This document shows, one piece after another, positions 12,550 to 28,043 of a stretch of DNA of 33,164 nucleotides (position 1 is the stretch's first letter; each line of letters starts with the position of its first letter). The notes below the pieces were generated by a model, which ran no database searches, had not been told where the DNA came from, and saw nothing but the letters and a program-made list of their open reading frames with translations. Made by a program: the position numbers and the translations under genes. Source of the stretch: Lentisphaeria bacterium (GTDB taxonomy: Bacteria > Verrucomicrobiota > Lentisphaeria > Victivallales > Victivallaceae); contig JAFSYV010000362.1 in assembly GCA_017443585.1 (NCBI GenBank), forward strand, positions 1 through 33,164. Reading direction: 5' to 3'.

Positions 12550-13499
12550 TCTATGCGCCCGACGCCCTGATCCTCGCCCCGCTGTCGGGGTTTTCCGACG
12601 CTCCCTACCGCCGGAGCGCCCGGAGCTGCGGGTGTCGTTATGCCTTCACCGAAATGGTGGATGCCGCCAGTCTGGTCTTCGCCTTCGACCGCTCGAAGGA
12701 ACTGCTGTTCCGGGGGCCGGAGGAGACCTTTCTCGGGGTCCAGCTGCTGGGCGGCCGCTGCGACCGGCTCCGCGAGGCGGTGGAGCGCCTGAACGATTTC
12801 GATTTCGATGTCCTCGACTTCAATCTGGGGTGCCCCGTGCCCAAGGTGGCGAAAAAGTGCGCCGGAGCCGAACTGGGGCTCCACCCCGAAGAGGCGGCGC
12901 GCTGTTTCGAAACCGTGGCCCGGTACAGCCGCTTCCCCGTCAGCGCCAAGCTCAGGATCCTCGACGAGGAGGACCCGGAGCCTACGCTCCGCCTCTGCCG
13001 TCTGCTGGTGGAAAACGGGGCCCGTGCCCTCACGGTCCACGGGCGGGTGAAGCAGGCCTTCTATTCGGGGCCCGTGCATTTCGAGATCATCCGGGCGGTC
13101 CGCGAAGCGTTTCCCGAGATCGAAGTGGTCGCCAACGGCGGCGTCCGCTCCCGGAGTTCCTACGACGAGATCAGACGGCGCACCGGCTGTTCCCGGGTCA
13201 TGGTGGCCACGGGGGCCATGGGGAATCCCTGGATCTTCCGGGAACTGGCCGACCCCGCGGAAAGCGGGGGGCCTTCCGCGGGGGAATGGCGGCGCGTCAT
13301 CGAAGAACAGAGCGCGGGCATGATCGCCCTTTACGGCGAGGCGAACGCCTGCCGCCGCGCCCGGAAGATTTTTCACGACTACCTGAAGGGCCGGGGATTT
13401 CCCGGTCAACTGCGGGCGGTCGCTTCCCAGACATCCTCAGCCGCCGATCTGGCCGCCTGGCTGGATACGGCCGTCAACAGCGGAGTTTTTGCCCGATGA
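12546..13499 (+). CDS. tRNA-dihydrouridine synthase (Dus family)
   Basis: An FMN enzyme that reduces uridine to dihydrouridine in tRNA D-loops. The 317 residues fold as a TIM barrel plus a C-terminal helical domain. Visible marks are LAPLSGFSDAPYRR at the N-terminus, the FNLGCP motif with the catalytic-type C96, SAKLRI with the conserved Lys, LTVHGRVKQAFYSG, VVANGGVRS for phosphate/FMN binding, and VATGAMGNPWIF. These match the DusB/NifR3-like branch best; the subtype and target position are inferred only loosely. The ATG overlaps the sigma-factor stop (ATGA) and its own stop overlaps the next start in the same way, so translation is coupled through this part of the operon. Confidence 0.92.
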   Translation: MIYAPDALILAPLSGFSDAPYRRSARSCGCRYAFTEMVDAASLVFAFDRSKELLFRGPEETFLGVQLLGGRCDRLREAVERLNDFDFDVLDFNLGCPVPKVAKKCAGAELGLHPEEAARCFETVARYSRFPVSAKLRILDEEDPEPTLRLCRLLVENGARALTVHGRVKQAFYSGPVHFEIIRAVREAFPEIEVVANGGVRSRSSYDEIRRRTGCSRVMVATGAMGNPWIFRELADPAESGGPSAGEWRRVIEEQSAGMIALYGEANACRRARKIFHDYLKGRGFPGQLRAVASQTSSAADLAAWLDTAVNSGVFAR

Positions 13500-15244
13500 A
13501 CAAAAATGAGCGTGTGCGCAGACTGTCATGGGCCCTGCTGCTTCTGGCCCTGCCGCTTTTTTCCTATCCTCTGGCCTGGGAGCTGGTCCTGGGCCGGAGC
13601 GTTCCGGAACTGGACCTGCTCCACCCCGTGACGCCGGCGGTGATCGCCCTGGCGGCTCTGGGGGCCGCCGTCGCCGAACCCCGGCGGATCCTGAAAGCGT
13701 GGCGGAGCTCTCTGCTGCTGAGGACATTTTTCGTTTCCGGACTGCTCTGCGCTGCTGCCGCGGCCTTTCAGCAGCTCCTTTACGGCGGGAGCTGGGAAAA
13801 CTTCTTTTACGCCCTCTTCGCCATCACCCTGCCCTGGGCGGGGGTGGCCCTCGCGCCGGAACTCAAACGGATCCTCCCCTGGTGGTGCAGTGCCCTTTTC
13901 GTGCTTCTGCTGCTGACCACGGTCCGCACCCCCATGTGCATCGGCTTCGTCGGCAACTGGAACTGGAATTTTACTCTCCTGGCCCTCACCCTGGCCGGAC
14001 TGGTGGTGCTGGTCTTCCGCTCCCGCTGGCGGCTGGCGGCGGCGGGGGCGGCCGTCACCTTGGGGGTGGTGGCGGTCTTCATCTGCTTCCCCGAATTCGC
14101 TCCCCGCGGGACCCTGGCGGGGGTCATCGGCGCCGCCGTTTCCCTCGCGCTGATCTTGCTTTTCAAACGGCGGGAACGGTGGCGCTACGCCTTGCTGGCG
14201 GCGTTGGCTTCGGGCGCTCTTTTCATTTCCGCCGTCAACACCTCCCAGAGTTCCGCCCTGGGGAGCTCGCGGGTCCAGCTGTGGCGCGGCGGCCTCGAGT
14301 TCGCCCTCGCCCATACGGTGGTCGGGGTGGGGCCGGCGAGGTTCGAAAGCCGCATCCCCCCCTACCTGCCCCCGGAGTATTTCCTCTCGGACTTTCCCGC
14401 CGTCCGCCATCCCCATCCGCATAACGAACTCCTCTATCTGTGGGCCGGGTTCGGCCTGGCGGGGATCTTCTATTTTCTCATGTGCATCGCCGTTTCCGTC
14501 CGGCAGATCAGTTCCCGCGATCCCGTGGGGCTCTGGATCATGTGGAGTTTCCTCCTGCTCCTCATTCACGGCATGTTCGACGTCCATCTGGCCACGCCCC
14601 TCGCCGGGACCCTCTGTTTCCTGATGCTGGGGACCATCTGCGGCGGCGGATTTTCCGGTCCTCCCTGCCGCATCGTCCTTTCCCGGCGTTACGCCGCGGC
14701 GCTGGTCCTGCTGACCGGGGCCCTGATCCTAGCCGGACTGCACTACCGCGCGGGCGACGCGCTGCGGGAGGGCCGTCTGGCTCAGGGACGGAACGACAAG
14801 GCCGCCGCGCTGCAGTTCTTCCGCCGCTCCGTGGAGATCTGGCCCACCGCCCCTGCGCTGTACATGGCGGGGCAGGTGGAGTTTTTCGACTTCTGCCGCC
14901 CGGACAACGCCCTTTTCTGGTGGTCCCGGATCCACGATGAACTGCGGATGCCCTCCTTCCTCCATCTGAACCGGCTCATGGGCCACGCCTGCGATGTGAC
15001 GGGACGCTATCCCCTCGCGTTCCACTACTACGAAAAGGAGTCGCGGGACTTCCCCTTCAGCGCCATCAACGCCGGGCTGAAACTGGGCCTGCTCCAGAAG
15101 ATCAAGGCTCCTCCGGAGCAGATCCGCGAGGCCGCCGCCGTCTTCGACCGCTGCATGCAGATGCGCAATCTCACCCCCGCCGACTTCCCCAAGCTCCTCC
15201 GGGATCCCCGGTTGGACGACGGCTCTCTGGTGAACCCGAAATGA
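13496..15244 (+). CDS. O-antigen ligase/polymerase-like membrane protein with C-terminal TPR-like region
   Basis: This 582-residue protein has about eleven to twelve hydrophobic segments (about 10-480) and the hallmarks of the WaaL/Wzy family: GNWNWN (153-158), VQLWRGGLEFA with conserved Arg residues, GVGPARFES (277-285), and the periplasmic-loop motif HPHPHNELLYLWAGFGLAG with H309 and N310. The family joins or polymerises lipid-linked glycans at the periplasmic side of the inner membrane. After the last membrane segment comes a soluble helical tail of about 165 residues with TPR-like pairs (GRNDKAAALQFFRRSVEIWP, TGRYPLAFHYYEKESRDFP), probably for protein contacts. The start overlaps the Dus stop and the stop overlaps the next gene, both as ATGA. 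Which glycan is transferred is unknown. Confidence 0.85.
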   Translation: MNKNERVRRLSWALLLLALPLFSYPLAWELVLGRSVPELDLLHPVTPAVIALAALGAAVAEPRRILKAWRSSLLLRTFFVSGLLCAAAAAFQQLLYGGSWENFFYALFAITLPWAGVALAPELKRILPWWCSALFVLLLLTTVRTPMCIGFVGNWNWNFTLLALTLAGLVVLVFRSRWRLAAAGAAVTLGVVAVFICFPEFAPRGTLAGVIGAAVSLALILLFKRRERWRYALLAALASGALFISAVNTSQSSALGSSRVQLWRGGLEFALAHTVVGVGPARFESRIPPYLPPEYFLSDFPAVRHPHPHNELLYLWAGFGLAGIFYFLMCIAVSVRQISSRDPVGLWIMWSFLLLLIHGMFDVHLATPLAGTLCFLMLGTICGGGFSGPPCRIVLSRRYAAALVLLTGALILAGLHYRAGDALREGRLAQGRNDKAAALQFFRRSVEIWPTAPALYMAGQVEFFDFCRPDNALFWWSRIHDELRMPSFLHLNRLMGHACDVTGRYPLAFHYYEKESRDFPFSAINAGLKLGLLQKIKAPPEQIREAAAVFDRCMQMRNLTPADFPKLLRDPRLDDGSLVNPK

Positions 15245-18751: not shown

Positions 18752-19813
18752 ATGGCAGAAAAGATCAAAGTCGGTATTCTGGGACTGGGGCGTGCCGGAA
18801 GAGGGATGCACATGTCCGAAATGGGCCGTTATCCGGAGAAATTCGAGATCGTCGCCGGATGCGACATCGATCCCGACCAGATCGAGACCGCCAAAAAGGT
18901 CACTCCCAACGCCCGCTACTACACCGACATGAAGCAGCTTTTCGCCGATCCCGAGGTGGAATTGGTCACCGTCGCCACCCGCTCACTCGACCACGTGAAC
19001 CATGCCCTCATGGCCTTCGAGGCGGGGAAGAAGGTCCTCTGCGAGAAGCCGGTGACCTCCTCCGTCGCCGAATTCGACCGTCTCTGGGCGGCGGAAAAGA
19101 GCCGTCCCGGCTCCATCTTCATCCGCCACAACCGCCGCTTCGAAGCCGCCTTCACCCAGATCCGGGACATCATCGCTTCCGGCAAGCTGGGCTGGGTCTA
19201 TGAGATCAAGCTGGCCCGCAACAGCTTCCAGTGGCGCGCCGACTGGCAGACCTTCAAGGAGTTCGGCGGCGGCCAGCTGCTGAACTGGGGCCCCCATATC
19301 ATCGACCACTCCCTGCGCTTCCTCGAATCCCCGGTGAAGTCCGTCTGGAGCAACCTGAAGCTGGTGGCCGCCCGCGCCGACGCCGAAGACCACATCAAGA
19401 TCGTCTTCGAAGGCGAGAACGGCCGTATCGTGGATATGGAAATTTCCGGCGGCGTCGCCCTCGACGACCCGGTGTACGTGATCCACGGCACCCGCGGCTC
19501 CCTCGTCAGCTATGACGAACAGCGGCTGAAGCTGAAATACATGAATCCCGCCGTGCCCATCCCCGATTTCAAGTCGGATCCGGGCAATCCCAAGGGCTAC
19601 GGCGCTCCCGCCAAGCCCGCCTGGGTAGAGGACGATCTTCAGGTGGCTCCCGCCAACGGCAACGACACCTACGTGATCTGGCGTGAACTCTACGCCGCGA
19701 TCCGCGAAGGCAAGCCCTTCCCCATCAAGTTCGAAGAGGCCCGCGAAGTGGTCCGGGTCACGGAGCTGGTGCGTCAGGGCGCCATCGACAACGTCCGGGA
19801 CCGGAAGTTCTGA
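18752..19813 (+). CDS. Gfo/Idh/MocA family NAD(P)-dependent oxidoreductase
   Basis: A 353-residue cytoplasmic oxidoreductase of the glucose-fructose oxidoreductase/inositol dehydrogenase family. The Rossmann part has GILGLGRAGRGMH (GxGxxG at 11-16) and an acidic strand end GCDIDP. The family motif is CEKPVT with catalytic K99. The C-terminal domain has GGGQLLNWGPHIIDHSL, whose His and Asp belong to the active site. These enzymes oxidise or reduce a hydroxyl of a sugar, inositol or amino-sugar derivative; the substrate cannot be read from sequence. The gene next to it encodes a sugar isomerase/epimerase, a pair that often acts in series on inositols or uncommon sugars. AAGGAG lies about 11 bases before the ATG. 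It is first in a four-gene operon. Confidence 0.92.
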   Translation: MAEKIKVGILGLGRAGRGMHMSEMGRYPEKFEIVAGCDIDPDQIETAKKVTPNARYYTDMKQLFADPEVELVTVATRSLDHVNHALMAFEAGKKVLCEKPVTSSVAEFDRLWAAEKSRPGSIFIRHNRRFEAAFTQIRDIIASGKLGWVYEIKLARNSFQWRADWQTFKEFGGGQLLNWGPHIIDHSLRFLESPVKSVWSNLKLVAARADAEDHIKIVFEGENGRIVDMEISGGVALDDPVYVIHGTRGSLVSYDEQRLKLKYMNPAVPIPDFKSDPGNPKGYGAPAKPAWVEDDLQVAPANGNDTYVIWRELYAAIREGKPFPIKFEEAREVVRVTELVRQGAIDNVRDRKF

Positions 19814-19851: not shown

Positions 19852-20646
19852 ATGCAAGCTCCCGACACCCAACTGGCCGTGACTCTCTACAATCTGCGCG
19901 ACTTCTGCAAGACCGAAAGCGACCTGGACCGCACCCTGGACAAGGTCTGCGCCATCGGTTATCAGGCGGTGCAGGTTTCCGGTGTGGCCCTCGATCCCAA
20001 GGTCATCAAGAAACAGCTGGACAAGCACAACCTCTTCTGCTGCGCCACCCACGAAGGACTGGGCGTCCTCACCGGCGATCTGGCCCCCCTCATCGACAAG
20101 ATGCAGTGCCTCGAATGCGACTTCACCGCTCTCGGCTGCCCGCCCCAGACCTACATCAACAGCTACGCCATGACCTGCGAGCTCATCGACATCATGAGGA
20201 AGGCCGGGGGCGAACTGATGAAGCACGGGATCAGGCTCGGCTATCACAACCACGCCAACGAATTCCGGAAGCACCCCGAGACCGGGAAGACCATGCTGCA
20301 GACTTTCTACGAGCGCACCGCCCCCGGCGACGGGCTCCCCGCGGTCTTCGCCGAGATCGACGTGCACTGGGTCACCCGCGGCGGCGGCAGTCCCGTCCGC
20401 TGGATCTGGAACGTGAACGGCCGCATGCCCGTGGTCCACTTCAAGGATCTGGCCTTCTTCGAGGGCGAACCCCGGATCTGCGAAGTGGGCGAAGGCAACC
20501 TCGACTGGCCCGCCATCATCGACGCCTGCCGCGAAACCAACGTCCGCTGGTACTCCGTGGAGCAGGACACCGAGTGGCCCAACCGGGACATCTTCGAATC
20601 CATCAAAATTTCCTACAACAATCTCCGCGCCATGGGCGTGCGCTGA
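19852..20646 (+). CDS. Sugar phosphate isomerase/epimerase (xylose isomerase-like TIM barrel)
   Basis: A 264-residue AP-endonuclease-2/xylose isomerase-like TIM barrel. Conserved segments with likely metal ligands are GYHNHANEF, VFAEIDVHWVTRGG, PVVHFKDLAFF and WYSVEQDTEW near the end, the typical Glu/Asp/His/Glu set. Members isomerise or epimerise sugars and inositols or act as 2-keto-inositol dehydratases; the substrate is unknown. The ATG has AAGGAAG about nine bases upstream and comes 38 bases after the Gfo/Idh/MocA gene, so they are probably cotranscribed and work on the same compound. Confidence 0.88.
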   Translation: MQAPDTQLAVTLYNLRDFCKTESDLDRTLDKVCAIGYQAVQVSGVALDPKVIKKQLDKHNLFCCATHEGLGVLTGDLAPLIDKMQCLECDFTALGCPPQTYINSYAMTCELIDIMRKAGGELMKHGIRLGYHNHANEFRKHPETGKTMLQTFYERTAPGDGLPAVFAEIDVHWVTRGGGSPVRWIWNVNGRMPVVHFKDLAFFEGEPRICEVGEGNLDWPAIIDACRETNVRWYSVEQDTEWPNRDIFESIKISYNNLRAMGVR

Positions 20647-20676: not shown

Positions 20677-21351
20677 ATGATCGACTACGGCGAGGAAAAA
20701 CAGACCTTCGGCGCGCCGAAGATAGATGTGGGGCCCGTCGCCCAGCTGCTGACGGCCCTCTATCTCGGCGGGGCCGTCGCGGCCTTTTTCGCGCCGCAGA
20801 CGGTCTGTGACGCCCTCGCCCAGGTCAACGCCGAACTGCCCCGCAGGTTCTGGACGCTCCTGACGGGAACGTGGGTCTTCCCCGAATCCTTCGAGGAGTT
20901 CTCAAGAGTCCCCGCGGGCTTCTGGGTGGTGGTCACCTTTCTCCTGGTCTTCTTCGTGGTGCGTCCCGTGGAGCTGGTGTGGAAGGACAAAAAGGGATTT
21001 CTCCTCTTTCTGCTGGTCTTCATGACGGGGCCGTCCCTCATCCTCTGGGCCCTCGACCCCGCGGGGCGGGAGGCGGCGGCCAGCTGGCCCTTCTGGTTCA
21101 GCGCCGCTTCCGGTCTGGCGGCGGTGTTTTTCAGCCGCCGCCGTCTGGCGGTCGCGGGCAAAGCCGTGCCGCAGAGTTTTCTTTACGCCGCCGTGCCCGT
21201 CGTTGCCGCTTTTTCGAGCTTTTTCAACGGCAGTTTCGTGCGCGGCGGACTTTACCTGCTCAGTGCGCTCCTGGGGGCGCTCTGGGGCTTTGCGGTGCTT
21301 TGCCGTGAGCGGTCCCGCACGAAAAACGCCGATCCAACACAGGAACATTGA
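20677..21351 (+). CDS. Rhomboid-like membrane protein, probably lacking the catalytic histidine
   Basis: A 224-residue membrane protein with about six hydrophobic segments and a hydrophilic C-terminal tail. Its layout resembles rhomboid proteases. RRFWTLLTGTWVFP stands where rhomboids have the start of the first loop. RPVELVWKDKKGFLLFLLVF matches the conserved Glu and following helix (E99). FSAASGLAAVFF matches the GASGAIFG serine motif, with S145 kept. In the last helix SFVRGGLYLLSALLGALWG matches the HLGG segment, but Val188 stands in place of the catalytic His. The loop His/Asn residues are also not evident. It may therefore be an inactive rhomboid-fold protein. It sits 30 bases after the isomerase gene and three bases before cysS. 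The assignment is by pattern and needs structural confirmation. Confidence 0.7.
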   Translation: MIDYGEEKQTFGAPKIDVGPVAQLLTALYLGGAVAAFFAPQTVCDALAQVNAELPRRFWTLLTGTWVFPESFEEFSRVPAGFWVVVTFLLVFFVVRPVELVWKDKKGFLLFLLVFMTGPSLILWALDPAGREAAASWPFWFSAASGLAAVFFSRRRLAVAGKAVPQSFLYAAVPVVAAFSSFFNGSFVRGGLYLLSALLGALWGFAVLCRERSRTKNADPTQEH

Positions 21352-21354
21352 TCA

Positions 21355-22767
21355 ATGGAACTCAAATTCTACAATACGCTGACCCGCACCCTCGAGGTCT
21401 TCAAGCCTATAAAGGAGGGGCAGGCGGGACTTTACACCTGCGGGCCCACGGTCTACAACTACGCCCACATCGGGAATTTCCGGGCCTACGTCTTCGAGGA
21501 TCTGCTCCACCGGGTCCTCGAGTACGCCGGGTACAAGGTGACGCAGGTGATGAACCTGACCGACGTGGACGACAAGACGATCCGCAACTCGCGGGCCGCC
21601 GGGATCCCCCTGCGGGAGTTCACCGCCAAGTACAAGCAGGCCTTCTTCGAGGACATCAAAACCTTGAACATCACCCCCGCCGCCGTCTACCCGGCGGCCA
21701 CGGATCACATCAACGAGATGATCGCCTTGATCCAGGTGCTCATGGACAAGGGAATCGCCTACCAGTCCAACGACAAGAGCGTCTATTTTTCCATCGCCAA
21801 GTTCCCCTCCTACGGCAAACTGGCCCACATCGACCGGGAAAACCAGCGGGCCGGGGTCCGCATCGACGCCGACGAGTACGCCAAGGACTCCGTGGCCGAT
21901 TTCGCGCTGTGGAAGGCCCGTGACGAGGCCGACGGCGACGTCTGGTGGCCCAGCCCCTGGGGCGAAGGCCGTCCCGGCTGGCACATCGAATGCAGCGCCA
22001 TGTCCATGAAGTACCTGGGCGAAGCCTTCGATCTGCACACGGGGGGCGTGGACAACATGTTCCCCCACCATGAGGACGAGATCGCCCAGAGCGAGAGCGT
22101 CACCGGGAAAAAGTGGGTCAACTGCTGGCTTCACTGCGAACATCTGATGGTGAACAACACCAAGATGTCCAAATCCCTGGGCAACTTCTACACCCTGCGG
22201 GATCTGCTCGAAAAGGGCTATACGGGCCGCGAAGTGCGCTGGGTCCTCATCGGGACCCACTACCGGAAGAAGCTGAACTTCTCCCTCGGGGCGCTGGATC
22301 AGGCCCGGGAGACTTTGGGCCGGTTCGGCGCCTTCTTCGCCCGGATGAAGGGGATCACGCAGGCCGGGGACGGCAGCGAGGTCAAGGAGCTTTTGGACCG
22401 GACGGGCGAACAGTTCCGCGCGGCCATCGCCGACGACCTCAACTCCGCCGGTGCGGCGGCGGCGCTCTTCACGCTGGTCCGCGACGGCAACCGTCTGGCC
22501 GACGAGGGGGCCCTGAGCGCCGCCGGGGCGAAGGCCATTCTGGAGCAGTGCCGGGATTTCGACCGGATCTTCGGGTGTCTCGCGGTGGATGAAGCCCCCG
22601 CCGCCGAAGCGATCCCCGCCGAAGTTGTCGCATTGGCCGAGGAGCGCGCTCAGGCCCGCAAGAACAGGAACTGGGTCGAAAGCGACCGCCTCCGCGATGC
22701 CATCAAGGCGGCGGGATACGCCGTCGAAGATGCGCCGGGAGGCGTCTGGAAACTCAAGAAACTTTGA
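21355..22767 (+). CDS. cysS: Cysteinyl-tRNA synthetase
   Basis: Charges tRNA-Cys with cysteine. The 470 residues are the normal length for the class I enzyme. The HIGH-type motif is AHIGNFRAY (H38-IGN) and the KMSKS motif is TKMSKSLGN (K270-S274). Zinc ligands are visible as C29 in YTCGPTVYNY, C213 in GWHIECSAMS and His/Glu of HHEDEIAQ. FDLHTGGVDNMFPHHEDE and the C-terminal helical DALR-like domain with RKNRNWVESDRLRD are typical. It is last in the four-gene operon; its stop lies four bases from the stop of the convergent VWA gene, and no terminator hairpin is evident there. The ATG follows AGGAA by about 11 bases. Confidence 0.97.
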   Translation: MELKFYNTLTRTLEVFKPIKEGQAGLYTCGPTVYNYAHIGNFRAYVFEDLLHRVLEYAGYKVTQVMNLTDVDDKTIRNSRAAGIPLREFTAKYKQAFFEDIKTLNITPAAVYPAATDHINEMIALIQVLMDKGIAYQSNDKSVYFSIAKFPSYGKLAHIDRENQRAGVRIDADEYAKDSVADFALWKARDEADGDVWWPSPWGEGRPGWHIECSAMSMKYLGEAFDLHTGGVDNMFPHHEDEIAQSESVTGKKWVNCWLHCEHLMVNNTKMSKSLGNFYTLRDLLEKGYTGREVRWVLIGTHYRKKLNFSLGALDQARETLGRFGAFFARMKGITQAGDGSEVKELLDRTGEQFRAAIADDLNSAGAAAALFTLVRDGNRLADEGALSAAGAKAILEQCRDFDRIFGCLAVDEAPAAEAIPAEVVALAEERAQARKNRNWVESDRLRDAIKAAGYAVEDAPGGVWKLKKL

Positions 22768-22771
22768 AAAA

Positions 22772-25489
22772 CTATTTCCGTTTGGCCCGCTTCAGGGCCG
22801 CGGAAAAGTCCTCATCCTCCGGTTCCGCCGCGGATTCTTGCGGCGGGACCGTTTCTTTTTCTTCCGGGACTTCGGGTTTCCGCCGGGGCCTGGGGCGCGC
22901 GGAGAGACGTCCGAAGCGGGGAAGGGTGAAACGGAACTCGAGTTTCGGAAGTTCCCAGCCGAACCGGCGCAGGGCCGCCTGAAGCAGGATCAGCACGATC
23001 GCCGTGCCGAGGAGAAAGTTGACGCAGGAACGCTTTTCCTGCTGCCGGGGCATGTACTCCCAGATGTCGGGGAAGGCGCTTCTCACCCGCCCCCCCGTCA
23101 GGCGGACCAGGGGAACGATGTCCCGCTCCCCGTCGTCGGTGAACTCGGGGCTGATGCTCCGCACGGCGGGGGGCAGGGCGATGGGGGCGCTCCCGCACCC
23201 TTCCACGGCCCCCGTGACGATGCCCCCCGGAGGAATGGCCGCCCTGGCGCTGAGCCGATCGGGCCCCGTCCAGCGGAACACGGCGGTCCGGGACTCCACT
23301 TTGCCCTCCGGCGTCAGGATCAGCAGCGTCAACCGGGGCGGCGTGTCGAAGGGATCGCTCCCGCGTTCCGGATCGAGAGCCGTTTCCGCCAGAAATTCCC
23401 CTTCGCGCATGTCCGACGTGATGAGGAAGTCGGCTCCGTTCCGCCCATGGGGCATGGAAACGTACCGGGCGAGAAAGGCCAGCAGCCGGGGCAGCCGGGG
23501 ATCGGAAGCGAACTTGCCCGTGAAGGCTCCGTCCGCCTCGATGTTGAGCGCGGCGCTCCGGCCCAGCCCGGCGAAGCCGATGATCGCGAGGGGAGCGTCG
23601 TCCTCGTCGTCGGTGCTCAGGAGGACCGTGCTCTTTTCCCTGGGGAAGGAGAGGTTGAAGCCGCCGCACTCCATCGTCCCGGTGAACCCTTCTCCGCTTG
23701 CGGCCGCGGCCGCCGCCGGCGTGAAGCGGCCGCGGGTTTTCCCCTTCTTGAAGGAGTTGCGCACCATGACGAAGGTGTCTTCGGCGTAGATCCGGGGCCG
23801 GTCATCCGCCCGGTCGGAAAAGTAACAGCGCCCCCCGCCCAGCCGGGCGATCTCCCGCAGGAGTTCGGCGTCGGAATCGGTCTCCGACCCCAGCCCCACC
23901 ACGCTGACGGTGATGCCCGCCTTGGAGCTTTTGGCCAGCAGTTCCCGGTAGTCGCCGGGCTGTTCCGCGTCGGCTGCGTCCGCGAAAAGGAGCAGATGGC
24001 GCACGGTCGCCTGCGATCTCAGCAGTTTTTCGATGCCGTCGTGGAGCGCCTTGTCCACGAAGATGCCGCCCCCCATGGATTCGATGGCGAGAATTTTCCC
24101 CGGCGCGTCGGCGAGCTCCTTTTTCGGGGCGAGGGGGACCACGTCGTGGACGGAACTGTCCACCGCCGTGAGGCCGAATTCGTCCTCCGGCGAAAGCAGC
24201 TCGAAACTCGCCATCGCGGCCAGATTGGCCATGGACATCTTGGTCACGCCGTCGATGGAAACGGCCATGCTCCCGGAGCGGTCCAGCGCCACCATGACCG
24301 CCGAGCGGTTCCGGCGGATCTCATGCTGTTTTTCCATGGAGGCGGGCAGCACGTCCCCCAGGGGCGAACGGAACCAGCCGCCCACGGCGAAACTGGCCAT
24401 GCCCCCCGTCATCAGCACCCCCAGCCGCCCCTTGCGGACCAGCTCCGCCGCCAGGCGGTTGACCGCGCTCGGTACGGCGGAACAGGGCACGTTTTCCAGA
24501 ATGAGGGCCTGACAGGCGCTCAGGGCTTCGGGAGTGAGGCGCTCCGGGGTGAGCACATCCGGTTCGAATCCGGAGTTCTTCAGCAGTTTCGCCAGATTGC
24601 CGGAAACGGAATTGGTGACGAGGAGCAGCCGCTCCTTCCCGGTGATCCGGACGAAGTGCCGGGCCGTGTTGTTTTCGGGGATCGTGTCACCTTGGGGCGG
24701 CAGCAGTTCCATATCGTAGGCGGCGGTGCCGCTGCGTTCCTCCCGATCCCGCCAGAAACAGCGGTTTTCCCCCTCGCGGAGCGACAAAATCCGCTCCTGC
24801 CAGGGGCCCTTGTTCCGGCGGATCCGGCAGCGGACCTTGGCGGCAAAGGGGGCCCGGATCCGGCAGGAGATGGTGTAGTGTTCTCCCGGAGCGGCGGAAG
24901 CCGGGCCTGAGACGTTCGTGATGGCGAAATCGGCGGTGTTTTCCCGCTTCAGGGGCAGAAAGTCCACGGCGATGTTCCGCATGGCCGCGGCGGTGAAAAG
25001 ATCGTCGGGGGCCGGGCCGTTCCACCGGCCGTCGGAAATGAGGAGGATCCGTCCGGGCCGGTCCCGCGGGATCTGCCCCAGCCCCTGCGTCAGGGCCTCC
25101 GCAAGGTCGGTGGCGTCCCGGTTCCGGGGCGGGGAAGCGAAGCCGTCGAAGGCTCCTTCGGAAGGCGCCCGTTCCAGTACGCTTTCCCCGGCGAAGGCGA
25201 GGACCCCGAAGCGGGCGTCCGCGGGACGTTTGGCGTTGATTTCCCGGATCGTCCGGATCATCCGTTCGCCGCTGCCCGGCGGCATGGAAAGGCTCCGGTC
25301 GCAGAGGATCATCAGCGTCCCCCGTTTTTCCGGGAACCGGATCCCCATCCCGGCCAGCGCCAGAGTCAGGATCAGGAAGATGAGGCCCTGCAGCACGTTG
25401 GCCGTCCGGGATCCGAAGGGCCGGAAGGCCAGATACGCCCCCAGCACCAGGAGCAGCAGGAGCCACAGGGGCTGTTCGAAATAGATCAT
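22772..25489 (-). CDS. Membrane protein with two VWA domains and a GATase1-like domain
   Basis: This protein of about 905 residues starts with two membrane helices (about 5-50). A first von Willebrand A domain follows (MIDAS DRSLS at 64-68, LLISDGRW near 150), then a beta-sandwich-like region. Next is a class I glutamine-amidotransferase-like fold (about 285-385, KERLLLVTNSVSGNLAKLL and MTGGMASFAVGG) with no catalytic Cys-His-Glu evident, and then a second VWA domain (DRSGS at 403-407). A last membrane helix lies near the C-terminus (VNFLLGTAIVLILLQ), followed by a Pro/Glu-rich tail. Families of this kind occur with BatA-like and DUF58 proteins, as here. The ATG at 25489 overlaps the stop of the BatA-like gene and has AGGAGG five bases before it. 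The role is unknown but probably in an envelope complex. Confidence 0.87.
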   Translation of the reverse strand: MIYFEQPLWLLLLLVLGAYLAFRPFGSRTANVLQGLIFLILTLALAGMGIRFPEKRGTLMILCDRSLSMPPGSGERMIRTIREINAKRPADARFGVLAFAGESVLERAPSEGAFDGFASPPRNRDATDLAEALTQGLGQIPRDRPGRILLISDGRWNGPAPDDLFTAAAMRNIAVDFLPLKRENTADFAITNVSGPASAAPGEHYTISCRIRAPFAAKVRCRIRRNKGPWQERILSLREGENRCFWRDREERSGTAAYDMELLPPQGDTIPENNTARHFVRITGKERLLLVTNSVSGNLAKLLKNSGFEPDVLTPERLTPEALSACQALILENVPCSAVPSAVNRLAAELVRKGRLGVLMTGGMASFAVGGWFRSPLGDVLPASMEKQHEIRRNRSAVMVALDRSGSMAVSIDGVTKMSMANLAAMASFELLSPEDEFGLTAVDSSVHDVVPLAPKKELADAPGKILAIESMGGGIFVDKALHDGIEKLLRSQATVRHLLLFADAADAEQPGDYRELLAKSSKAGITVSVVGLGSETDSDAELLREIARLGGGRCYFSDRADDRPRIYAEDTFVMVRNSFKKGKTRGRFTPAAAAAASGEGFTGTMECGGFNLSFPREKSTVLLSTDDEDDAPLAIIGFAGLGRSAALNIEADGAFTGKFASDPRLPRLLAFLARYVSMPHGRNGADFLITSDMREGEFLAETALDPERGSDPFDTPPRLTLLILTPEGKVESRTAVFRWTGPDRLSARAAIPPGGIVTGAVEGCGSAPIALPPAVRSISPEFTDDGERDIVPLVRLTGGRVRSAFPDIWEYMPRQQEKRSCVNFLLGTAIVLILLQAALRRFGWELPKLEFRFTLPRFGRLSARPRPRRKPEVPEEKETVPPQESAAEPEDEDFSAALKRAKRK

Positions 25490-27177
25490 GACTTCCTCCT
25501 TGCGGCAAGGAACTGTTCCAGCATGAGGAGCGCCAGCGCGCCCGCGATGAAGAACATGGTCCACAGTTTGCGGCTCAGGTTCTGTTCCAGTTCCGTCAGC
25601 TTGCAGCGCCGCAGGGAGGTCCGGCAGGACGTCAGGTCCGAAAGGACCGTCACCGCCGGGTTGACCGCCGCAAGTCCGCTTCCCGAAGGGGCGGAAAAGC
25701 GGTAGAGGCCGGGCCGGTTCACTTTCAGGGCGATCCTGCCTCCCGCCCCCGTCAGTTCCAGATCCCCTTCCGGGCCCTTGCAGGCGACCTTTTCCTCACT
25801 CTTCCCGGTGCGGAATACGAGAGTGTCGCCCGCGTGGTACATCCGGTGTTCCGGCCCCGGCCGCAGGGCCCGGAACCGGGCGGCCAGATTGCAGAAAAGC
25901 CCCGGCCAGAAGGGCAGCGAAGTCACGTTCGAGTGGGGGAATGAGAGGTTGAAATGGATCCGGCAGGAGCACGGGCCGGTCTTTTCCTCCGAGATGACGG
26001 GCGCCTGGGAGGAAAAGAGGATCCCCCGGCCCGGCAGGGCGATCTCGCCGAATCGGCTCCAGGCAAGTCCGCTCGTCGAAAGGCCCCGTGCGAGGGGCGA
26101 GTGGTTTTCCAGCGCGGGCGCGAGCTCCTCCCCCGCAACCGTCTTCCCCTGATGAAAGATGACCTTGCTTTTCCCTTTTCCCTTCCGGGGATCCCCGGTG
26201 AAGAGCACTTCGGGAAGGGCCGAGCCCGCAGCCGGGCGGAAATCGGGATCGTTCCGGAGCACCAGCTCCAGAGCCCGTTCCGCCGGGACGGGGAGATTTT
26301 CGAGCGCATAGGTGACGGGGGCCGTGTCTTCGGGCAGGAGCCGCGCGGTGTCGTCGAAACCCAGCAGGTCCCCCGGCGTCTTCAAGGCGACGGTGACGGG
26401 CCCGCGGGCATCGGGACAGCCGAAGCGGAACAGTTTGCGTTCGCCGCCTCCGATGGTGAAGGTCCGACGCAGAAAGTTCCCCGCCCGCAGCTCGGACTTG
26501 AGGGCTCCGGAGGAAAAATTCTGCACTTCGATCAGGGCCCGGCCGTCGGCGTACCGGGCGTTGACGATGGCCAGATTGGGGCCGGGGATCCCTGCGCTCA
26601 GGCAGGTGACGCCGGGGAGCTCCCCGGCGAGGGGACGGTCGGTCACCACGATGACTTCGCTTCCCGGACAGCGCATCTTTGCCAGGGCGATGGCCTGCTC
26701 GGCCCGGAATTCGGGCTCATCCCCGCGCCAGAGCTTCTTCAGATCGGGATCGGGCCCCTGCACGTTCAGCGCTTCCGTCGCCGTTCCGCTCCGGAACCAC
26801 ATGATCTTTCTGCCGGGGAAGGTCTTCAAGTACCGGGCGAGCATTTCTTTCGCCCGCAGCCGCACGGCGGGAGTCATGGCGTAACTGTCGTTCAGGATCA
26901 CCGCCGCGGGGGGAAAACGGTCCTTACCGACGGTGAAGAACGCGGCCCCGGCGCAGGCCAGGAGCACGAGCGCCGCCGCCAGCAGAAAGAAGCCCAACGG
27001 CGGACACTTCAAAAGGAACCGGGGCGAACCGCTCGCCTCGCCGGAGGAACTCCCCCACAGGAAGAGGGCGGAAGTGAAGAAGGGCTTCGCCTTCCGGCGG
27101 AAAAGGTAGATGAGCAGCAGCACCGGCACGGCGGGCAGGAAAAGGAAAAAGAGCGGTGTGAGCCATCCCCAGATCAT
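25486..27177 (-). CDS. BatA-like membrane protein with N-terminal double-helix domain
   Basis: A protein of about 563 residues. The N-terminus (MIWGWLTPLFFLFLPAVPVLLLIYLF, then a basic loop RRKAKPFFTSALFLW and a second helix at about 57-77) is the BatA/aerotolerance-regulator N-terminal module. The body is a degenerate VWA-like domain (AVILNDSYAMTPAVRLRAKEML, VIVVTDRP) and a long beta-rich extracytoplasmic region. A final membrane helix precedes ARRKS at the C-terminus. In place of a full MIDAS it has NDSYAM, so the VWA metal site has lost its first Asp. The ATG overlaps the stop of the DUF58 gene by four bases and has GGGAGGG about nine bases before it. It probably forms a membrane complex with the VWA protein encoded after it. 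Confidence 0.85.
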   Translation of the reverse strand: MIWGWLTPLFFLFLPAVPVLLLIYLFRRKAKPFFTSALFLWGSSSGEASGSPRFLLKCPPLGFFLLAAALVLLACAGAAFFTVGKDRFPPAAVILNDSYAMTPAVRLRAKEMLARYLKTFPGRKIMWFRSGTATEALNVQGPDPDLKKLWRGDEPEFRAEQAIALAKMRCPGSEVIVVTDRPLAGELPGVTCLSAGIPGPNLAIVNARYADGRALIEVQNFSSGALKSELRAGNFLRRTFTIGGGERKLFRFGCPDARGPVTVALKTPGDLLGFDDTARLLPEDTAPVTYALENLPVPAERALELVLRNDPDFRPAAGSALPEVLFTGDPRKGKGKSKVIFHQGKTVAGEELAPALENHSPLARGLSTSGLAWSRFGEIALPGRGILFSSQAPVISEEKTGPCSCRIHFNLSFPHSNVTSLPFWPGLFCNLAARFRALRPGPEHRMYHAGDTLVFRTGKSEEKVACKGPEGDLELTGAGGRIALKVNRPGLYRFSAPSGSGLAAVNPAVTVLSDLTSCRTSLRRCKLTELEQNLSRKLWTMFFIAGALALLMLEQFLAARRKS

Positions 27178-28043
27178 TGCAGAAGCCCTCCCCGGCAGAA
27201 AGGCGTCATGTCCCAGCTCCCTGTCAGCTGCGCGGCATCGAACGTGAAGAAGAGGGCCTGATACGAGGAACAGCTTTCCTCCCATTTCCTCCTGAAGTTT
27301 TCCAGATTGTTCCGATAGCGGCGCAGCAGCTCTTCACCGGCTTCGATGCCTTTTTCCTCCTCCGTTTCCGGATCGGTCAAAGTCACCAGCCCGGAGAGGG
27401 CGGGATCCAGTTCCTCGTGACCCAGGAGCTGGATCACCGCCGCCGCGCCGGGGGCGAGGAGCCGGAGCACCTTTTCGGGGAGCTCCTCGAAGAGCAGGTC
27501 GCTGATGAGGATGCGCATCCCCTGCCGGAAAAATCCCGGCGCCGCGAGATTCAGGGTCTCCGGGGGATTGCTCCGGGAGCCCGTGTCGGGCAGTTCCCAC
27601 GTGGGGGGATCGGCGGCGGGCTCGATTTTCCGCACTTCGTCGTGGAGCGCCCAGACGTGGAGCGAGAAGCCGGAAGCCGCCGCACTGCGGGCGAAGACCG
27701 CTCCCAGCCCCGCCGCCGCTTCCATCTTGTGGTAGAAGGACATGGAGTCCGAACAGTCCAGGATCAGATCGCAGCGGGGATCGGTCTCCCGCGCGAACTG
27801 CCGCACCATCAGCTGGTCGTTCCGGGCGAAGAGACGCCAGTCCACGCGGCGCAGTTCGTCCCCTTCGCGGTAGGCCCGGTAGTCGGCGAACTCCGTGGCG
27901 CCGCCGGCCTGGCGGCCCGTCCGGCGGCCGTCGAAACTGCCGGGGCAGACGGGAGGCGTCAGCTTCAATCCGGAGCATTTCGTCAGCGCGGCATTTATGG
28001 CTTGGGTCAACTCTTTTCTCATGATGGAAACATAAGATAGCAC
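27174..28043 (-). CDS. DUF58 domain protein
   Basis: A protein of about 289 residues with the DUF58 core: GRQAGGATEFADYRAYREGDELRRVDWRLFARNDQLMVRQFARE, then a VWA-like segment LILDCSDSMSF with an intact DxSxS. DUF58 proteins usually work with a MoxR-type AAA ATPase and Bat proteins; the two Bat/VWA genes follow directly, but no MoxR gene is present in the window. Start choice is uncertain: the GTG at 28043 has GAG seven bases before it, whereas the ATG at 28022 has no clear ribosome site but begins exactly where the family's N-terminus is expected. The gene starts 15 bases after the GT2 stop and ends overlapping the BatA-like start. Confidence 0.88.
   Translation of the reverse strand: MLSYVSIMRKELTQAINAALTKCSGLKLTPPVCPGSFDGRRTGRQAGGATEFADYRAYREGDELRRVDWRLFARNDQLMVRQFARETDPRCDLILDCSDSMSFYHKMEAAAGLGAVFARSAAASGFSLHVWALHDEVRKIEPAADPPTWELPDTGSRSNPPETLNLAAPGFFRQGMRILISDLLFEELPEKVLRLLAPGAAAVIQLLGHEELDPALSGLVTLTDPETEEEKGIEAGEELLRRYRNNLENFRRKWEESCSSYQALFFTFDAAQLTGSWDMTPFCRGGLLQ

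Follow-up and report, generated by a model that had tools for sequence, protein, structure and literature searches.

What a protein built like a rhomboid protease does once the catalytic histidine (His) is gone is the question raised by a short gene of a Lentisphaeria bacterium, lying between a sugar isomerase-like gene and cysS. The window analysed here, a stretch of 33,164 nucleotides, belongs to a 4.1 Mb draft genome of 371 contigs (92% complete, 7.5% contamination). Analysis of its open reading frames (ORFs) identified the frame at 20677-21351 on the forward strand as a real gene for a protein of 224 residues. An initial annotation had proposed a pseudo-rhomboid at this place. Orthologues flanked by the same genes were found in five further genomes of a single gut Lentisphaeria clade, and the occurrence of open frames in six genomes rules out a sequencing or assembly artefact.

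The gene is tightly embedded. It is preceded, after a gap of 30 bases, by a gene for a xylose-isomerase-like TIM barrel protein (19852-20646, +; PF01261, E 4.2e-08), which also adjoins it in the orthologous loci, and it is followed by cysS (21355-22767, +; PF01406, E 2e-110), which begins 3 bases past its stop codon. The distance to cysS is 3-37 bases in all six genomes. The order isomerase, pseudo-rhomboid, cysS is kept in the five genomes with a complete upstream isomerase on the contig; the contig of genome G023 begins within the isomerase, and that of G013 stops within cysS. Two loci, those of G011 and G014, were examined over a wider range, and in both a Gfo/Idh/MocA oxidoreductase gene (18752-19813, +; PF01408) keeps its place; the wider block is also alike there, with a DUF4139-like gene, the oxidoreductase and a large opposite-strand gene past cysS.

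Probable kinship with rhomboids

Family models give no hint of what this protein is. None of the six orthologues matched the rhomboid family PF01694 by hmmscan, and Pfam returned weak unrelated matches only. No rhomboid appeared in NCBIfam, where TIGR02206 was hit at E 0.011 by one of the six members next to three weaker matches, or in a profile search of the PDB, in which the single match, at E 1, was a soluble enzyme.

The predicted structure is more informative. A template-free AlphaFold2 model of the window protein (mean pLDDT 67, pTM 0.65, residues 47-79 below 50) contains six transmembrane (TM) helices; short helices lie in the L1 loop, and a pair of strands separates TM4 from TM5. On the forward strand, TM1 (residues 20-38) is encoded at 20734-20790, TM2 (80-101) at 20914-20979 with R96-P97-x-E99 at its end, TM3 (105-126) at 20989-21054, TM4 (137-151) at 21085-21129, TM5 (166-183) at 21172-21225 and TM6 (187-217) at 21235-21327. 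The profile alignment described below and the orthologue columns also bear on TM2, the profile alignment on TM4, and structural and profile alignments on TM6. Net loop charges counted from the modelled helices are -2 for the N-terminal tail, -2 for L1, +2 for L2, -1 for L3, +4 for L4, +1 for L5 and +1 for the C-terminal tail. The values for L2 and L4 fit a rhomboid with both termini inside, and the tail charge of -2 adds nothing to the N-in assignment.

A plain Foldseek search of the PDB with this model gave 38 matches at E ≤ 10, none with E ≤ 0.001 and none a rhomboid; the rhomboid matches arose solely from realigning the 227 Foldseek candidates with VIA-align 2. After realignment, the top 31 rows all belonged to the rhomboid superfamily: 30 GlpG entries and chain W of 7y4w (Z 11.6-13.4, rmsd 3.5-4.9 Å, 152-186 residues aligned), followed by a row at Z 5.3. 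The best had Z 13.4, with 168 residues aligned at 3.9 Å. Chain W of 7y4w, a human endoplasmic reticulum-associated degradation (ERAD) complex, aligned over 186 residues (Z 11.9, rmsd 4.9 Å); we take it to be Derlin-1, the entry title naming only the complex. These values are to be read with the caution attached to the tool that helical bundles may reach a Z of about 13 without kinship. A second model, from the G013 orthologue, was poorer (mean pLDDT 57, pTM 0.52). Its first 12 rows were again GlpG (Z 8.3-9.3, the best with 157 residues aligned at 4.2 Å), then came a designed rhomboid-like fold at 7.8 and unrelated folds from 6.1 downwards, a smaller margin than that of the first model.

Sequence profiles were also compared directly. 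The 60 genomes contain 75 matches to PF01694 (75 distinct ORFs); with five set aside (L146, L148-L151), 70 canonical rhomboids remained for the profile. Alignment of the six orthologues with this profile by hhalign gave P values of 6.5e-4 in local and 5.6e-5 in global mode, at probabilities of only 27% and 38%. None of 300 column shuffles (blocks of 1, 4 and 8) reached the real score in either mode, their lowest P values being 0.0069 (local) and 0.0047 (global). Two unrelated membrane families, of 9 and 4 sequences from this genus, gave P 0.4 and 0.17 against the query and P 0.064 and 0.57 against the rhomboid profile, and reversal of the query or of the rhomboids gave P 0.24 and 0.17.

The profile alignment pairs recognisable elements. 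FWTxLTG (residues 56-63; 20842-20865), present in all six orthologues and modelled as a helix at pLDDT below 50, faces the W-x-L-T of L1; ASG faces ASG in TM4; and E99 falls on the glutamate column at the end of TM2. E99 is invariant in the six orthologues, which bears out the conserved glutamate of the initial annotation. In L1 the Trp is kept and the Arg is replaced by Thr in all six, giving WT instead of the WR motif found in about 80% of rhomboid superfamily members (PMC12615303, available excerpt). In TM6, where the superfamily motif is AHxxGxxxG (PMC3237569, available excerpt), five orthologues have G200-x-x-x-G204 and one has AxxxG. This GxxxG holds for the profile register alone; structural alignment places Ser/Cys196 at the first Gly.

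Could the protein be an unrelated six-helix membrane protein, for instance a small-molecule transporter or an acyltransferase-like protein, that resembles rhomboids by convergence? The missing family match, the weak TIGR02206 hit and the small margin of the second model (lowest GlpG row 8.3, first unrelated row 6.1) would agree with this. TIGR02206 is, however, absent from five of the six orthologues, the margin of the first model is large (11.6 against 5.3) and extends across nearly the whole GlpG core, and shuffled, reversed or unrelated membrane profiles fall short of the real score. The wide Z gap of the first model and the profile test speak against a chance resemblance, and we regard convergence as rather improbable. 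The rhomboid plan claimed at the outset is supported by the modelled fold, although the orthologue model is weaker, and comparison with GlpG brought up no different fold.

Loss of the catalytic residues

The initial annotation had noted a missing catalytic His, and the absence goes further than was claimed. The only His of the window protein is residue 224, its last; two orthologues have none, and there is no conserved His column. Within the aligned core of TM6 (residues 187-207), His is absent from all six sequences. The serine S145 (21109-21111) in the degenerate GxSG motif AASG of TM4, also pointed out initially, is indeed there in the window protein, but it is not conserved: column 145 reads S, A, S, S, A, A, Ser in three orthologues and Ala in three. 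The TM2 segment 78-100 contains no Asn in any orthologue and a single unconserved His (H90) in one. If E99 is equated with Glu166 of GlpG, as we assume, counting back places GlpG His150 and Asn154 at W83 and T87, whereas the profile places them at V84 and F88, an uncertainty of one residue. As judged from these columns, the pseudo-rhomboid has no oxyanion-hole His or Asn.

Which residue of TM6 stands at the place of the catalytic His depends on the register. The structural alignments end at residues 209-211 of the model and 270-272 of Escherichia coli GlpG, which puts His254 opposite Tyr193 (21253-21255) if the helix end is ungapped; this residue is Tyr in all six orthologues, and the orthologue model gives the equivalent Tyr194. 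In the profile register the catalytic His lies opposite Ala197, also invariant, and G200 and G204 fall on two conserved glycines. The VRGG motif (residues 188-191; 21238-21249), initially proposed to stand where active rhomboids have HxGG, is present in the sequence directly before Tyr193, but it is variable (column 188: V, S, K, E, G, T; column 190: G, M, T, G, M, A). It was rejected as the His register, given this lack of conservation and the structural and profile alignments that point to Tyr193 and Ala197. On the aligned sequences, a Ser-His dyad is excluded whichever TM6 register holds; the protein is predicted to be inactive because the His is absent, not because of any register.

Proteolysis through a different nucleophile or base would be compatible with the invariance of Ser71, Ser181, Tyr193 and Thr87. 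The helices nevertheless hold no conserved His, Lys, Asp or Glu save E99 at the end of TM2, and the TM4 Ser varies, so that this explanation appears very improbable. With a rhomboid fold modelled and no orthologue keeping Ser and His in register, the designation as pseudo-rhomboid stands, and the window protein is very probably a rhomboid-fold pseudoprotease.

Distribution, selection and other losses of activity

A protein search found the pseudo-rhomboid in six of 60 genomes (its own and 59 relatives), and the identical six, own genome included, came back when 137 genomes of the order were searched with a profile. The five relatives are metagenome-assembled genomes of Lentisphaeria/Lentisphaerae, four of them from the gut of sheep, yak or roe deer. 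Beyond this clade, a scan of genome contigs with the single protein gave no relatives, and a scan with the alignment gave only the five genomes of the clade. A search of the phylum (387 genomes) yielded the five clade matches and ten others at E 0.0025-0.095, each over 28-84 positions, which we read as chance. Outside the clade, 26 genomes of the genus have a cysS match, and for all but G019, which yielded no locus, the three longest frames upstream of cysS were inspected by eye. No counterpart was seen in these 25 (L053-L077; less than 1500 bases upstream in L054, L072 and L075). A cysS match was missing in two of the 34 genus genomes. The cysS genes of carriers are 84-90% identical to that of the window, those of other genus genomes 66-74%, and the pseudo-rhomboid gene marks that subclade.

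Orthologues share only 41-51% identity with the window protein. This fast change beside a cysS at 84-90% would be expected of a former rhomboid protease in decay and on its way out. The frame is open in all six genomes, however, and dN is lower than dS in all 15 orthologue pairs, with dS saturated in many. The least saturated pair (G013/G027) has dN 0.11 and dS 0.59; the remaining 14 have dS of at least 1.08 (three infinite by formula) and dN of 0.22-0.58. In addition, 63 positions are invariant among the six orthologues and the tight spacing to cysS is kept. Decay was rejected on the dN/dS evidence and is in our view extremely improbable. The gene is under purifying selection; the protein is constrained, yet evolving faster than its neighbours. 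Of the invariant positions, 22 lie within the first 31 residues (20677-20769, +), which comprise the N-terminal tail and the start of TM1 and read MIDYGE(D/E)KQ...GPV.

Ordinary rhomboids of these genomes have mostly remained active enzymes in appearance: 70 of the 75 matches keep the equivalents of His150, Asn154, Ser201 and His254 (GlpG numbers, assigned to columns by motif). Three lack catalytic residues, and a partial match (L150) is unscorable. The rhomboid of G018 (L146, G018:C33:13475-14906) keeps GSSG and has His254 replaced by Asn, His150 by Gln and Asn154 by Ser. Those of G052 (L148, G052:C35:3222-4647) and G057 (L149, G057:C22:22846-24271), from one genus, have Ser replaced by Tyr, His254 by Ile, His150 by Asn and Asn154 by Ala. 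The latter two are 87.5% identical with a dN/dS of 0.18, and the inactive version is therefore also kept by selection. Rhomboid inactivation thus seems to recur in this order. These three proteins resemble the pseudo-rhomboid in the loss of Ser and/or His, but differ from it in matching PF01694 and in keeping a C-terminal SR-x-GINSL tail that the window protein lacks.

This tail, approximately LDKLSRxGINSLSxxEL, occurs on many ordinary rhomboids (aligned columns show it in about 55 of the 75, a motif pattern in 46; e.g. L001:1351-2154). Since it persists even where catalysis has been lost, the tail may have a non-proteolytic function. Two further variants were seen among the ordinary rhomboids. 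One is a short protein with a 225-residue open frame and a weak PF01694 score (L151, G059:C118:67814-71254, -), in which Ser and His are kept and Asp stands for Asn154. The others are longer PF01694 proteins of 355-438 residues in several genomes (L016, L019, L021, L024, L113, L115, L124, L126, L132, L133, L141, L143 and L144), which are mostly found beside a shorter one and possibly form a second class.

Possible functions

Catalysis is not required for a rhomboid fold to thin the membrane and to bind TM segments, as Derlins show (PMC12615303, available excerpt), and in Bacillus subtilis the catalytically dead YqgP S288A still hands MgtE to FtsH (PMC7231995, available excerpt). An M41 (FtsH-type) peptidase is present in all six genomes and an ordinary rhomboid (PF01694) in five, and client binding and handover would therefore be favoured. 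Our preferred reading, which we hold with moderate confidence, is that of a dedicated rhomboid pseudoprotease of bacteria, which would bind membrane clients without cutting them and recruit a partner through its N-terminal tail, acting as an adaptor or holdase. The protein would sit in the inner membrane with both termini inside and retain the rhomboid cleft and the Trp-bearing L1 loop, and the membrane-spanning parts of one client or a small number of clients would be held uncut. The conserved MIDYGE(D/E)KQ tail is the likely recruiting part; as its partner, FtsH or a similar processive protease would be the most plausible, or else another quality-control factor, and adaptor or holdase action would follow as in catalytically dead YqgP and Derlins. 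Taken separately, the adaptor role is a possible but far from assured prediction by analogy, and FtsH as the putative partner is doubtful.

How far do known systems support this reading? The window protein resembles GlpG and other rhomboid proteases in its predicted fold of six TM helices and an L1 loop, in the W-x-L-T of that loop, in the Glu at the end of TM2 and in the small residues of TM4 and TM6. It departs from them in lacking the catalytic His, the oxyanion His/Asn and a Pfam match, in its variable Ser and in WT for WR. With the Derlins (Der1, Dfm1, Derlin-1) it has in common a rhomboid fold without dyad, which any pseudo-rhomboid would share and which is thus not diagnostic of specific kinship. 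Derlins have a p97-binding tail and ERAD partners; the window protein is bacterial, without endoplasmic reticulum machinery or p97 context. Dfm1 needs the Arg of WR, and the replacement of this residue in the alignment counts against a Dfm1-like use of L1. YqgP, too, is a bacterial rhomboid-superfamily protein, able to serve as an FtsH adaptor without catalysis (PMC7231995, available excerpt), but it has protease activity and a metal-binding N-domain in the cytosol, and the window protein is neither active by prediction nor equipped with such a domain. Another B. subtilis protein, YdcA, has all rhomboid hallmarks and no detectable activity (same excerpt).

iRhoms, to which the initial annotation tentatively likened the protein as a possible binder of membrane substrates, are likewise rhomboid-like pseudoproteases, but have an iRhom homology domain and a TM7 (PMC12615303, available excerpt); 224 residues with six helices leave no room for such extras, and Derlins or YqgP-type adaptors offer a comparison as good. 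The iRhoms nonetheless suggest a different function, in which the pseudo-rhomboid would restrain or shield, competing with or binding the active rhomboid of the genome or its substrates, as a regulator and not an adaptor. An ordinary rhomboid is indeed encoded in the same genome, with GASG and, in TM6, AHLGG, and the narrow distribution fits a lineage-specific regulator. Against this, G023 (76% complete) has the pseudo-rhomboid and no PF01694 match, although one could be in the missing part, and the protein holds no iRhom-specific domain; regulation of this kind we consider unlikely. For the preferred adaptor or holdase, the neighbouring genes are a point against, as sugar metabolism and cysS indicate no client protein.

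Rhomboid pseudoproteases are a known kind of protein, their functions known mainly from eukaryotes; what would be new is a dedicated dyad-less bacterial family beyond the reach of Pfam and NCBIfam. Among the matches listed in our literature search, none described such a rhomboid by title or start of abstract; Kinch and Grishin (2013) may list inactive prokaryotic members, and no priority is claimed. YqgP suggested that adaptor work preceded catalytic loss, a line that Began et al. drew from a still-active protein (PMC7231995, available excerpt). A natural bacterial family with its dyad erased, under selection in genomes that have FtsH and, mostly, an active rhomboid, would permit a direct test of that evolutionary line. 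We may speculate, with low confidence, that it is a bacterial counterpart of the Derlins: permanently non-catalytic, this rhomboid-fold protein would have the sole role of receiving clients for, or acting as adaptor to, a machine that degrades membrane proteins. It has so far been seen in a single clade of an order with other, separate catalytic losses. Since the family models tried here miss it, such proteins may be undercounted.

Elsewhere in the window, a protein of 870 residues that resembles O-antigen ligases (Wzy_C) is encoded at 12632-15244 (+). Beside cysS lie the genes of two large proteins at 22772-25564 (-) and 25486-27285 (-), of which one is vWA-like by eye and the other has a BatA N-terminal match under its cut-off; a counterpart of the first (22772-25564) sits after cysS in G011 and G014.
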